Below, piece by piece: positions 31,600 through 39,691 of a stretch of DNA of 45,743 bases. A model generated the notes under the pieces. That model did no database searches and was not told the origin of the DNA. It saw only the letters and a program-made list of their open reading frames with translations. The stretch is from positions 1 to 45,743 of IMG/VR virus record IMGVR_UViG_3300031963_000272, one strand, 5' to 3'. Each line of letters opens with the position of its first letter. Within the stretch, counting starts at the first letter, position 1. The position numbers and the translations under genes are program-made. The DNA comes from a virus.

Positions 31600-31788
31600 A
31601 TGATCATCTACTTCACCCTGACTACAGATACTGCTGTGTATCAGTTCCAGGTGAACAAGGAGGAGAACTTGGTGCGTGTCACCAAGCTTGTCCTCAAAGG
31701 CCAAGAGTGGGGCGAGTGGCATCGCTCCACACTCATGACCGTAGACGCAGGGCGCAAGCTCGTGCGTCAACTACAGAAGACCAGGTGA
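31600..31788 (+). CDS. small protein, first gene of the accessory operon
   Basis: 62 aa. Beta-rich start (IIYFTLTTDTAVYQFQV) then charged helices (MTVDAGRKLVRQLQKT). GAGGA seven bases upstream of the ATG is a Shine-Dalgarno site, unlike most later genes in this operon. No family recognised. Its last codons pair with downstream RNA in element A1. Confidence 0.62.
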   Translation: MIIYFTLTTDTAVYQFQVNKEENLVRVTKLVLKGQEWGEWHRSTLMTVDAGRKLVRQLQKTR

Positions 31789-31851
31789 GTTATAGCTCCC
31801 AAGCCAGGTGCAATGCCTGGCTCTGGTTATTGCCCCCTGTGGAGATGGGCA
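31780..31851 (+). ncRNA. inter-cistronic RNA element A1
   Basis: An outer 5-bp helix is possible between ACCAG (31780-31784, before the stop) and CTGGT (31823-31827). It encloses a short GAG/CTC hairpin and a T-arm-like hairpin AGCCAGG, loop TGCAATG, CCTGGCT (31802-31822). TATTGCCC then pairs as TGCCC/GGGCA (31831-31851). The loop TGCAA matches the T-loop of the phage tRNA-Leu. Confidence 0.55.
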
Positions 31852-31870
31852 CCACACACACGGAGTAACC

Positions 31871-32068
31871 GTGGACTACACCGTCAACATCATCGAGCGT
31901 AACGGTCAGTACTTCCTCCAAGAAGTCTTTGCAGTTACTGAGTTCCAGTATGTGGAACAAGTGACTGCAGGTCCGTTCCAAGCTCGATGGCAAGCGGACG
32001 TGCAGCGCTCACAAGAGTACCCGGCATACCGGGGACTAACTGATGAGTACTGCCGTCTGCAACACTGA
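31871..32068 (+). CDS. small hypothetical protein
   Basis: 65 aa from GTG 31871, with CGGAG five bases upstream. The sequence (YTVNIIERNGQYFLQEVFAV, then FQARWQADVQRSQEYPAYRG) suggests a small alpha/beta protein. The frame runs further upstream but only through element A1, so the GTG is preferred. Function unknown. Confidence 0.6.
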   Translation: MDYTVNIIERNGQYFLQEVFAVTEFQYVEQVTAGPFQARWQADVQRSQEYPAYRGLTDEYCRLQH

Positions 32069-32131
32069 GTCCGTATAAGCGGCATTGGCAGGTGCAATCC
32101 CTGCCTTCAGTATTGCCACAATCCAGTGGCA
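32064..32131 (+). ncRNA. inter-cistronic RNA element A2
   Basis: Outer helix ACTGA (32064-32068, containing the stop codon) with TCAGT (32107-32111). Inside are CCG/CGG with loop TATAAG and the T-arm-like GGCAGG, loop TGCAATC, CCTGCC (32087-32105). A last hairpin TGCCAC, loop AATCCA, GTGGCA (32114-32131) follows. All stems differ in sequence from A1 yet keep pairing. Confidence 0.6.
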
Positions 32132-32148
32132 TCTACTCTATACCAACG

Positions 32149-32331
32149 ATGACTCAACACATTGCATCCATCGTCATTACTACTGCCACACTTATGGGCA
32201 TTGGTACCCAGGTCACCATCCATCAATTGGATAAGGCGACCGCAAAGCAATGCATCAACCATGAGTGGCCAGTAGAAGCACATGACATCCACCTTGCGTG
32301 GTGCGCAGCTAACAACTACCCAACCAACTGA
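32149..32331 (+). CDS. small exported or membrane-anchored cyanophage protein
   Basis: 60 aa. An N-terminal hydrophobic stretch (IASIVITTATLMGIG) can act as signal or membrane anchor. The rest, AKQCINHEWPVEAHDIHLAW then CAANNYPTN, has two Cys and conserved W/H residues and resembles small proteins I have seen in cyanophages (QC...HDWP...WC...GYPT pattern). Unknown role, perhaps in the envelope. No Shine-Dalgarno site. Confidence 0.68.
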   Translation: MTQHIASIVITTATLMGIGTQVTIHQLDKATAKQCINHEWPVEAHDIHLAWCAANNYPTN

Positions 32332-32392
32332 TCCGTCTAAGCGGGTGACCAGGTGCAAACCCTGGTCCAGTTATTGCCACAATCCCGTGGCA
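32326..32392 (+). ncRNA. inter-cistronic RNA element A3
   Basis: Outer helix AACTG (32326-32330) with CAGTT (32368-32372), CCG/CGG with loop TCTAAG, and the T-arm-like GACCAGG, loop TGCAAAC, CCTGGTC (32347-32367). TGCCAC, loop AATCCC, GTGGCA (32375-32392) follows. It is then followed by the CA-rich leader CTCAACTCAACACC and ATG. Confidence 0.62.
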
Positions 32393-32410
32393 TCTACTCA
32401 ACTCAACACC

Positions 32411-32605
32411 ATGTACTACATCGTGATTGACGGCGTGCAGCATGGCTTCTCCTTCCAATGGGAAGAAGCACTGATCGAAGCTGCACAACAAGACCACATG
32501 CTTAACTCACCAGAGTTAAACGACGGCATCCAAGGCACGCATGACGTGCAGATCATGTCCTTCCAGGAGATGATGGAAGCCGACGACGTTGTGATGGTCA
32601 TCTGA
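32411..32605 (+). CDS. small acidic hypothetical protein
   Basis: 64 aa. YYIVIDGVQHGFSFQWEEAL suggests a beta hairpin followed by helices; the rest is acidic with several Met. ATG 32411 is preceded by a CA-rich leader without a Shine-Dalgarno site. Function unknown. Confidence 0.62.
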   Translation: MYYIVIDGVQHGFSFQWEEALIEAAQQDHMLNSPELNDGIQGTHDVQIMSFQEMMEADDVVMVI

Positions 32606-32663
32606 CCAGGCGTGAGCCGGGGCATCGAATGCCCCATACAACTATTGCCACAATCCCGTGGCA
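32588..32663 (+). ncRNA. inter-cistronic RNA element A4
   Basis: T-arm-like hairpin GGGGC, loop ATCGAAT, GCCCC (32619-32635), a short GGC/GCC hairpin with loop GTGA (32611-32618) and TGCCAC, loop AATCCC, GTGGCA (32646-32663). The outer pairing GTTGT (32588-32592) with ACAAC (32638-32642) starts before the stop and is weaker evidence than in A1-A3. The last 35 bases and the leader are almost identical to A3. Confidence 0.55.
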
Positions 32664-32681
32664 TCTACTCAACTCAACACT

Positions 32682-38396: not shown

Positions 38397-38647
38397 TGAC
38401 TGTCCTTGCTATCGAACACACATCATTCACTGACACTCATGTCACAGTTACAGCAGTTGTTGACGACATGCGCCTACTCTATCGGGCGACTCGCTTCGAG
38501 CCTGAAGAGTGGGCTCCTGCATTGTGTCAAGCAACTATTGAGCTGGATCCAGAGGAACCGATTCCTCTTGACGAAGATGGCTTCTGCAGCTATCTTGATC
38601 AACTCGATCCTCTCTGGCAACTACTTGATCTGAGTGACGACGAATGA
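38396..38647 (+). CDS. small acidic protein
   Basis: 83 aa from ATG 38396 (TGATG overlap with the preceding gene). Acidic, with LLYRATRFEPEEWAPALCQA and a C-terminus LDQLDPLWQLLDLSDDE. Function unknown. Overlaps the next start as ATGA. Confidence 0.6.
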   Translation: MTVLAIEHTSFTDTHVTVTAVVDDMRLLYRATRFEPEEWAPALCQATIELDPEEPIPLDEDGFCSYLDQLDPLWQLLDLSDDE

Positions 38648-38793
38648 TTGGTTTCTCAATTGAATTCAAACGCTGGTACTTTGTACTACGTGGTCCCAAA
38701 GGTCGAGTGTACCTGGCAACTGGTTTTGCTAAACGCATACCAGGCATTATACCGACCGGTACCTACACTATTGATCAATACTTAGAGCAGTAA
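38644..38793 (+). CDS. small basic beta protein
   Basis: 49 aa: MIGFSIEFKRWYFVLRGPKG then IPGIIPTGTYTIDQYLEQ. Basic, beta-type. ATGA overlap with the preceding stop supports it as a real gene. Function unknown. Confidence 0.58.
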   Translation: MIGFSIEFKRWYFVLRGPKGRVYLATGFAKRIPGIIPTGTYTIDQYLEQ

Positions 38794-38798
38794 TGATC

Positions 38799-38826
38799 AC
38801 GTCCTGGACATGACGTTAAACTGTCC
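38799..38826 (+). ncRNA. inter-cistronic RNA element D1 (H-type pseudoknot)
   Basis: Stem 1 ACGTC (38799-38803) with GACGT (38812-38816). The loop bases GGACA (38806-38810) pair with TGTCC (38822-38826). Loops of 2, 1 and 5 bases make a compact H-type pseudoknot. It follows TAATGATC and precedes a CT-rich leader and ATG. Confidence 0.62.
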
Positions 38827-38849
38827 ACTCTACTCACTCATTTAATCCA

Positions 38850-39140
38850 ATGGAAATCAATTCTCCAACACCTCCTTTAGATCTTGTCAATGATTGGATG
38901 ACACATTGGTATAGTGACAATCAAACAGATGACATGCAACCGATGTACATTGCAACTAAAGCTGCAATGTGGGGAGCAATCTGGGGAGCTACCAATGCTT
39001 TGGAAACAGCCATCCAAGACACGTCACCTGTTCATTGGCGCGTAGCTGGTGGCGCAGAAGATGGCCAACAAATAGTACGTGTTATTGATTTAATGGAATG
39101 GCTTGCACAGTTCCGTAAAGAATACGAGGAAAAACTTTGA
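38850..39140 (+). CDS. MTQxHPITPPP-family-like protein
   Basis: 96 aa. NSPTPPLDLVNDWMTHWYSD, then ATKAAMWGAIWGATNALETA and a C-terminal helix (LMEWLAQFRKEYEEKL). It keeps the TPP-x-x-LV-x-x-W start of the paralogous family but not its Cys pair. Its 3' end lies in the first copy of an 86-base tandem repeat, and its stop overlaps a TTG start. Confidence 0.6.
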   Translation: MEINSPTPPLDLVNDWMTHWYSDNQTDDMQPMYIATKAAMWGAIWGATNALETAIQDTSPVHWRVAGGAEDGQQIVRVIDLMEWLAQFRKEYEEKL

Positions 39141-39294
39141 CACAGCAACACTTCATCACGCCACCGCCGCTAGATTTAGTGCGCAAGTGGATGGAACAAA
39201 CCAAGTACTACGAGGAAAAACTTTGACACAGCAACACTTCATCACGCCACCGCCGCTAGATTTAGTGCGCAAGTGGATGGAACAAACCAAGTAC
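39123..39294. repeat. 86-base tandem duplication
   Basis: 39123-39208 and 39209-39294 are identical, joined head to tail. As 86 is not a multiple of three, the first copy makes a short dead-end frame and the second carries the real gene start. Identity implies a recent event. Confidence 0.88.
39137..39226 (+). pseudogene. truncated duplicate of the start of the 123-aa gene
   Basis: TTG 39137 opens 29 codons (start as QQHFITPPPLDLVRKWMEQT, then YYEEKL) that are the same as the start of the next gene and end in TGA inside the second repeat copy. It is a by-product of the tandem duplication. Confidence 0.55.
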
Positions 39295-39594
39295 GACGAA
39301 GACACATGTTTTTATGAATGCTACATAGCAGAGCAATCAGCCCTATGGGGTGCAGACCAGCAACTTTTAAAAGATGCAAAATGGTTGGATCACAATGCTT
39401 TAAATGAATCACATCTGAGAATTATTCCAGTGGGCGAGTCTTTAATTGAAGCAATGCGCCCCAGGCCTTTAAGTCTGAAAGTGCAAGCATTAGCAGCTCT
39501 TGAGACAGAGCCAGAAGATGCTAAAGAACTAATTGTGTTTGATACAGATCAAGTCAACATTATTCGACGCGCATTGGAGCAACTTAATGACTGA
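39223..39594 (+). CDS. MTQxHPITPPP-family protein
   Basis: 123 aa from TTG 39223. TQQHFITPPPLDLVRKWMEQ, then SALWGADQQLLKDAKWLD, then RPLSLKVQALAALE and NIIRRALEQLND. These are the four family landmarks: TPPP start, WGADxxL, RPxSLKxQAL and IxRRALEQL. TTG as start is supported by alignment with the ATG of the paralogue at 43353. The gene lies behind an 86-base tandem repeat. Function unknown; expected cytoplasmic. Confidence 0.68.
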   Translation: MTQQHFITPPPLDLVRKWMEQTKYDEDTCFYECYIAEQSALWGADQQLLKDAKWLDHNALNESHLRIIPVGESLIEAMRPRPLSLKVQALAALETEPEDAKELIVFDTDQVNIIRRALEQLND

Positions 39595-39640
39595 CTACCG
39601 AGCAACGCCGGAGCAGTGGTTAGAACTAGAGCTCAAGTAA
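39587..39640 (+). pseudogene. remnant of a MTDYRATPEQW-family gene
   Basis: Seventeen codons (TDYRATPEQWLELELK) then a stop. The start matches a small protein family opening MTDYRxTPEQW that is common in marine picocyanobacteria and their phages, but the rest is missing. ATG overlaps the preceding stop. I read this as a truncated gene. Confidence 0.45.
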
Positions 39641-39663
39641 TAATTGTTGTAAACTTTGATCAA

Positions 39664-39691
39664 CCGTCCTGGACATGACGTTAAACTGTCT
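39664..39691 (+). ncRNA. inter-cistronic RNA element D2 (H-type pseudoknot)
   Basis: CGTC (39665-39668) with GACG (39677-39680), and GGACA (39671-39675) with TGTCT (39687-39691, one G-U pair). Its core is almost identical to D1 for 20 bases, but stem ends differ. It is followed by ACCTACACCACACCACATC and ATG. Confidence 0.58.

Follow-up and report, generated by a model that had tools for sequence, protein, structure and literature searches.

Covarying RNA elements at the gene junctions of a probable S-EIV1-lineage cyanophage: possible boundary units of phage transcripts

The early gene junctions of phage T7 carry long imperfect hairpins that are cut by RNase III, a T7-type site being a duplex of about 20 bp. 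The repetitive extragenic palindromic units and bacterial interspersed mosaic elements (REP/BIME) of enterobacteria lie behind stop codons and are thought to block 3' exonucleases, and in mitochondria tRNAs punctuate long transcripts as folded units that mark the places of cutting. The operator of T4/T2 gene 32 is one pseudoknot site, located 67 nt upstream of the start codon and bound by gp32 (PMC3014915), and conserved RNAs of cyanophages include CfrI, PhotoRC-II, wcaG and the glutamine riboswitch (PMC9964418). Described here are four families (A to D) of structured RNA elements at gene junctions of a 45,743-base stretch of viral DNA, IMG/VR record IMGVR_UViG_3300031963_000272 (G000; hereafter the window), and in other phages. 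All features with window coordinates lie on the plus strand.

Fourteen such elements (four A, three B, five C and two D) had been claimed in an initial annotation of the window, and all 14 sites are present. Descriptors, whose patterns pre-set part of the helices (unconstrained pairing was scored separately), matched five C, two D and two A on the plus strand and one C, no D and no A on the minus strand; 200 dinucleotide shuffles gave plus-strand means of 0.30, 0.00 and 0.03, respectively. Covariance models were built for family C (R1) and family D (R2), and recovered all five C (E 6.5e-13 to 8.2e-5) and both D (E 3.2e-8 and 5.1e-7) in the window. The minimum free energy (MFE) z-score was between -2.21 and -4.44 in 10 of the 14 elements, the remainder being A1 (-1.50), C2 (-0.45), D1 (-0.30) and D2 (+0.78). 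Families A, C and D extend far beyond the window: pattern scans of IMG/VR found C in at least 119 stretches, A in at least 119 and D in at least 120, counts that rest on the matches listed. The earlier observation is thus confirmed and its extent is wider than first thought; the pseudoknot fold of D, the spread of A, C and D beyond one operon and one phage group and the substitution of C for D had been missed. Its interpretation is partly supported, and among the roles it named RNA processing fits best.

Family D is a 28-base H-type pseudoknot rather than a nested fold, with the plan S1-C-S2-U-S1'-UUAAAC-S2', and because it is a pseudoknot it fails the MFE test, folding no better than shuffles. 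In D1 (38800..38827) S1 is CGTC/GACG, S2 is TGGACA/TGTCCA and L3 is TTAAAC; D2 (39665..39692) lies upstream of a PcfJ-like gene and was also placed by alignment of that junction. Across 52 chosen sequences 94.0% of the alignment cells were paired, 8 of the 10 pairs had changed on both sides and the covariation score was 0.497, against 0.195 in shuffled and at most 0.097 in slid controls; these rows comprise 40 of 91 pattern-selected sequences and 12 descriptor or BLAST matches picked for forming both helices, so the figures for S1 are inflated. All six S2 pairs form in 84 of 108 sequences in which the search pattern did not fix the pairing. For D at the PcfJ junction, chosen by protein homology (17 distinct sequences), 91.2% of the cells were paired and the score was 0.296 against 0.196 shuffled; 47 of 500 shuffles equalled its number of pairs changed on both sides, and 409 of 500 its number of further pair types. 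By fold class D belongs to the H-type pseudoknots, since its helices interleave and each of them shows compensatory changes. A direct repeat with an 86-base period (TACGAGGAAAAACTTTGACACAGCAACACTTC...) was seen by eye in the small genes just 5' of D2 (window 39123-39297).

Family C follows the plan CUGGG-C-A-(U bulge)-C-variable hairpin-G-U-G-(UAAGU)-CCCAG, with loops that are frequently UUCG- or GNRA-like. The window copies are C1 (34638..34688; R1 E 8.2e-05), C2 (35095..35132; 9.1e-07), C3 (35387..35427; 3.7e-07), C4 (36384..36424; 6.7e-07) and C5 (38155..38184; 6.5e-13). The sample held 94 sequences distinct with their flanks, window included, and 79 distinct viral cores. When the middle was left free, at least two inner pairs stood in register in 71 of the 79 viral cores against 4 of 17 from bacterial genomes (three of which were too short), and the inner pairs together with A8-U18 in 65 of 79 against 2 of 17. 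In 36 distinct R1 rows 97.9% of the cells were paired and the covariation score was 0.133 (0.050 when shuffled, 0.029 at most when slid), in an alignment fitted to R1 and hence biased towards it; a further alignment of 26 rows (alignment A1, distinct from element A1) is restricted to a single length class, its outer stem having been set by the search pattern. Loci picked by protein homology show variants of the outer stem (CTAGG/CCTAG, CTTGG/CCAAG, ATGGG/CCCAT and TTGGG/CCCAA), and among 24 such loci R1 gave 59 matches in 19, all on the operon strand, some of the contigs being near-identical. A collection of genomes from 84,980 species held the C pattern in 19 stretches, and blastn of C against GenBank phages gave short fragments or no match. 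A match in Dolichospermum was set aside as chance upon reading. In GC-rich contigs (L026, L033, L042, L050, L054, L095 and others) the order TGA, C and G-rich GGCACGGCGCGGC-like pseudo-repeats was observed.

The hallmark of family A is a 7-bp hairpin with a UGCAANN loop, in which all seven pairs form in 105 of 108 distinct pattern matches although pairing was not required. An alignment of 33 sequences, picked for diversity from these 108, was 99.1% paired with a covariation score of 0.977 against 0.223 shuffled, and on two of five measures (pairs changed on both sides, further pair types) it was no better than shuffles. Elements A2 (32069..32132; T-arm-like hairpin 32087-32105, z -3.80) and A3 (32332..32393; hairpin 32347-32367, z -3.27) stand immediately 3' of stop codons, match the consensus and share in the family covariation. 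The assignment of the other two claimed copies stood less well: A1 (31789..31852) and A4 (32606..32666; z -3.80) are divergent and lack the CCGU..AAGCGG motif, with two hairpins retained. In A1 these are the T-arm-like hairpin 31802-31822 and the third hairpin 31831-31851, and 12 of 200 shuffles folded equally well. Family A is not tRNA-like, having the T-arm-like hairpin without acceptor stem and D-arm. A likeness to the Pistol ribozyme (AAGCG..AGGUGCAA) was rejected on a different order of parts and no Rfam match. A T-loop as a motif uniting all families was likewise rejected; it fits the heptaloop of A, a paired reading (C7-G19, A8-U18) competes in C, and D and B need none. By eye, family A was also seen 3 nt past a stop in the marine podovirus S-CBP2, from a weak blastn match.

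Family B (B1, 32931..32982, z -4.44; B2, 33395..33457, z -4.02; B3, 33725..33776, z -3.20) has two conserved helices that exclude each other, Y1:X and X:Y2 in B1. It was looked for mainly in S-EIV1-like loci, and its loose descriptor yields overlapping and false matches, for which reason no exchange between A and B is claimed. The earlier statement that the helix plan is kept while stem bases change is borne out by compensatory changes in A, C and D; the structure of B is less clear.

Placement was scored on matches near the end of an open reading frame (ORF) of at least 60 codons. The distance to the upstream stop was 0 nt in 83 of 127 A, 3-4 nt in 67 of 178 C and 5 nt in 54 of 154 D; 18 of 145 A, 25 of 203 C and 16 of 170 D matches are omitted from the count for want of such an ORF end nearby, the descriptors require pairing, the C set includes matches in bacterial genomes, and the mode of A is favoured because its search pattern includes the GA of TGA. 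The strand of the adjoining ORF end is also that of the element in 110 of 123 scored cases for A, 141 of 165 for C and 131 of 141 for D. A start at or near the upstream stop, as claimed, thus holds as a sharp mode for A, C and D, from which C4, D2 and C5 deviate. C4 lies about 78 nt past a stop, behind another hairpin; D2 lies, by eye, 24 nt past the stop of a 17-codon ORF, with a TGA at the usual 5-nt spacing (39657-39659) where no ORF of at least 50 aa ends; C5 lies within the ORF of an HNH homing endonuclease gene (37666-38346).

On the downstream side, with ATG ORFs of at least 50 codons within 140 nt, the 3' edge of D is at least 19 nt from the next ATG in 145 of 148 cases and 19-29 nt in 103. 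The leaders are G-poor (9% G after D, 10% after C), in agreement with the CA/CT-rich leaders reported earlier, and Shine-Dalgarno-like words are absent from the last 18 nt in 103 of 122 cases for D and 112 of 134 for C. The proposed rule that a junction has either a coupled start or an element survives as a tendency. Among 30 junctions of annotated genes in S-EIV1 (L164 14726-30742), gaps of at most 25 nt held an A-D element in 0 of 12 and gaps of at least 49 nt in 11 of 18, A and B being assigned by reading and C and D by covariance models, and some wide gaps containing unannotated ORFs. In the window, the gap 36744-36917 ahead of ATG 36918 has no A-D element; the ATG at 36759 is in the same frame, which makes the true start uncertain.

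Unlike folds exchange at corresponding junctions. At the junction with the PcfJ gene, locus L004 has C where its relatives have D, and L016 has neither. Where the genes on both sides are homologous, 34 of 1006 element pairs set C against D, at several different junctions; such pair counts, for flank homology as for exchange, are of non-independent events. Family A recurs with many gene partners: in 103 junctions, 27 clusters of upstream genes meet 40 clusters of downstream genes in 69 combinations.

Elements also stand between tRNA genes. In phage S-CRM01, where six of seven R2 matches were read in context, one D separates tRNA-Ser from tRNA-Met and a second separates tRNA-Met from tRNA-Leu, each 2 nt behind one tRNA and 2-4 nt before the next. 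A third lies 2 nt behind tRNA-Tyr, a weak one (E 0.011) abuts tRNA-Lys, and two follow apparent ORF ends (L399 and L401, by eye). A C element stands 3-5 nt 5' of a tRNA in five contexts (3-4 nt 5' of tRNA-Leu in four loci besides the window) and D 1-2 nt 5' of a tRNA in two further contexts, out of 14 contexts in all with a tRNA within 60 nt of an element. The D between tRNA genes means that translation initiation, one of the roles first suggested, cannot be the general role of D. Three bacterial genomes (L404-L406), where by eye D stands between a short ORF and a terminator-like hairpin, point the same way. What unites the contexts is the place at which an RNA unit has its 3' end.

The distribution of D is broad. 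With three D queries, blastn against GenBank phages (E limit 10) gave 137, 122 and 13 records, many of them weak. In 23 D regions that were read, a script built the interleaved D-plan pairing in 17 (in a shifted register in Paracoccus and D6E) and none in Staphylococcus 55-2, E. coli flopper, Pectobacterium PM1 and one S-CRM01 site; for Javan271 and StB12 it built pairing unrelated to D. All 20 records tested with R2 matched at E <= 0.1, 11 of them named phages (1.1e-8 in Nostoc NMeng1 to 0.0096 in flopper); as they were picked for their matches and some fed the model, this is a confirmation and no survey. D thus occurs in phages of hosts from several phyla. The Vibrio and Christensenellales matches lie beneath annotated opposite-strand ORFs.

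Of 398 bacterial genomes in the phylum to which a Lachnospiraceae genome belongs, 5 carry the exact D pattern; of 398 in that of a Pseudorhizobium genome none does, and the reversed pattern is absent from both sets. These five sites show that D is not confined to viruses, the ORFs that flank it in L404, L405 and L407 appearing chromosomal by eye, without a family search. In four bacterial genomes (L404-L407) a short ORF ending in AHC..G-like residues was seen by eye just before D, and in L404, L405 and L406 a terminator-like hairpin 3' of it; in L407 a T run follows D.

No described RNA class was recognised, as the initial annotation had held. Rfam 15 matched only tRNA-Leu in the window at the gathering threshold; relaxing the limit to E 5 added no more than a weak rli43 match. 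In 12 other D-bearing phage loci it matched tRNAs and gave one sub-threshold match on a tRNA, and in L404-L408 only sub-threshold matches, of which STnc40 (L406) and HepC_CRE (L404) overlap D. None of its ribozyme families matched in the window or the 12 phage loci, nor did any of the cyanophage RNAs named above in the window, the presence of CfrI in Rfam being unchecked. The PubMed Central literature gave no description of the elements, preprints, subscription papers (S-EIV1 and S-CRM01 genomes) and supplementary RNA lists lying outside that search, and the accessible parts of PMC3014915, PMC8040213, PMC9004378 and PMC9964418 gave none either. The elements do not resemble intrinsic terminators, mostly CA/CT-rich leaders following them (by eye, without a terminator scan). 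Stop readthrough or frameshifting was dropped as an explanation, no shared open frame past the stop having been noticed by eye and no formal test made.

We tentatively favour the reading that the elements are cis-acting RNA boundary units that serve transcript processing and 3'-end protection and thereby insulate cistrons. Each element would fold compactly just past the 3' end of an RNA unit, be it an ORF stop or a tRNA, and give way either to a free leader or at once to the next unit. Host RNases would cut the long phage transcript in or near the single-stranded linker, RNase P doing so ahead of a tRNA, and 3'-to-5' exonucleases would be halted ahead of the stop codon by the fold that remains at the freshly made end, so that each cistron would stay intact and insulated from its neighbour. 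Judged by ribosome footprints, a spacing of 0-5 nt past the stop and at least 19 nt before the ATG would lie just outside both the terminating and the initiating ribosome, and the body could remain folded while ribosomes terminate and initiate. The presence of unlike folds at one site argues for a shared physical role.

Several findings weigh against boundary units of this kind. Same-family pairs with only the upstream or only the downstream flank homologous numbered 286 and 221 for A, 158 and 285 for C, and 141 and 463 for D, and D frequently accompanies the downstream PcfJ gene; on this mixed result it is not claimed that an element belongs to its upstream gene. In phages of Firmicutes hosts D lies 5' of genes for scaffold, minor-capsid and capsid proteins, its distance from the upstream stop as annotated ranging from 3 to 124 nt, and 49 of the 154 scored D matches are more than 25 nt from their ORF end. 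The mixed flank homology together with the position before scaffold and capsid genes keeps a 5'-leader or insulator role in play. The conserved loops UAAGU, UUAAAC and UGCAA suggest recognition over mere stability. In L405 and L407 (the latter by eye) the stop codon overlaps S1, which a terminating ribosome would therefore open.

The same data bear on four other explanations. The folds might act as purely translational insulators that block the sliding of terminated ribosomes and keep the next start open, with no cutting of RNA; their spacing would place them between a ribosome that terminates and one that initiates, the leaders are G-poor and the narrow S-EIV1 gaps are empty, but nothing is translated downstream of a D between tRNAs or of a D or C 1-5 nt before a tRNA, and we regard this as rather unlikely. 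Recognition of the conserved loops by a host or phage endonuclease that cleaves at a set position, in the manner of RNase III in T7, would agree with loop bases that are invariant in the chosen alignments (partly fixed by the patterns) and with placement at boundaries, tRNA arrays included. An exchange of C and D at the same junctions is hard to square with one enzyme, and RNase III needs longer duplexes than helices of 4-7 bp; such signals seem a little less probable again.

Regulators that bind a protein or ligand, like a riboswitch or the gene 32 operator, would explain compact conserved folds and the resemblance of the D plan to an H-type operator pseudoknot; fourteen copies of four folds in one operon, the exchange of C and D, hosts from several phyla and a position tied to the upstream stop make them improbable. 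Recombination joints, in which short sequences shared by gene ends would aid the exchange of cassettes and RNA structure would be secondary, accord with the strong shuffling around A, yet compensatory changes keep pairing while lowering the DNA identity that recombination needs, and element orientation follows the genes; this we consider very improbable.

Set beside the known systems, the elements resemble T7 RNase III sites as structured RNA that separates cistrons at successive junctions of one phage operon, but they are units of about 26-65 nt with unlike folds that also stand between tRNAs, and the helices of D, A and the outer stem of C have 4-7 bp in place of the T7-type duplex. With REP/BIME they share the form of post-stop palindromic units; those are chromosomal DNA repeats with simple hairpins, whereas the elements are mainly viral, with conserved loops, a pseudoknot in D and a preferred spacing from the stop. 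Like mitochondrial tRNAs they may mark, as folded units, the places where a long transcript is cut, although they are not tRNAs and only family A shares a T-loop-like heptaloop. The gene 32 operator is likewise an H-type pseudoknot in a noncoding part of a phage mRNA; D is present in several copies per S-EIV1-like genome, behind stops, and between tRNAs in S-CRM01.

More speculatively, the elements could represent a general punctuation of phage RNA, in which interchangeable folds, D foremost, mark the 3' boundary of any unit across phyla and are read by a shared host process. How cistrons are separated, stabilised and translated in dense phage operons is known for only a few model phages. Covarying families that occupy the space from stop to start, swap at orthologous junctions and separate tRNAs would supply a testable rule for phage transcript processing, would account for unannotated gaps and would offer compact insulator parts. 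As D occurs in phages of workable hosts, such as phage phi673 of Corynebacterium glutamicum, the rule is directly testable.

The PcfJ-like protein (39720-41435) has relatives at 24 IMG/VR contig loci (45-94% identity), and of the GenBank phages Synechococcus phage S-EIV1 (41.3%) and phage B23 (27.0%) have one; megablast of window 25-45 kb against GenBank phages gave no match and hence no near relative. S-EIV1 (L164) holds all four families, and we infer that the window derives from an uncultured freshwater cyanophage of the S-EIV1 lineage. ARAGORN found tRNA-Leu alone, a tRNA-Leu(UAA) at 42210..42295 that itself occupies a junction, with a CA-rich leader and an ATG downstream; its T-arm, GCAGG-UGCAAGU-CCUGU, looks like the family A hairpin. 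A weak family C element, C6 (42178..42207; R1 E 0.32), lies 2-3 nt 5' of this tRNA. The stop codon of a second HNH gene (41717-42207) falls within its UAAGU (42197-42199), and in L004 C is likewise followed by tRNA-Leu and a similar MQ(F/L)FAAFK gene. Both HNH genes of the window end in C, the first ORF crossing C5 without a stop of its own there; in relatives the gene upstream of the first HNH gene directly precedes C.

By reading, a possible family E was noticed 3' of the PcfJ-like gene (41446..41477), with the stem GGCATCC/GGGATGCC and the loop TATCCTCGTAAAT; S-EIV1 has the same loop on a different stem, GGTCC/GGACC (L164 ~21774-21797). The element-free gap 36744-36917 of the window contains a CCCCCC/GGGGGG hairpin, and a 467-nt gap of S-EIV1 (L164 18330-18798) holds a large hairpin and GATCGGATTTAATCCGACTATCC, matching none of A-D.

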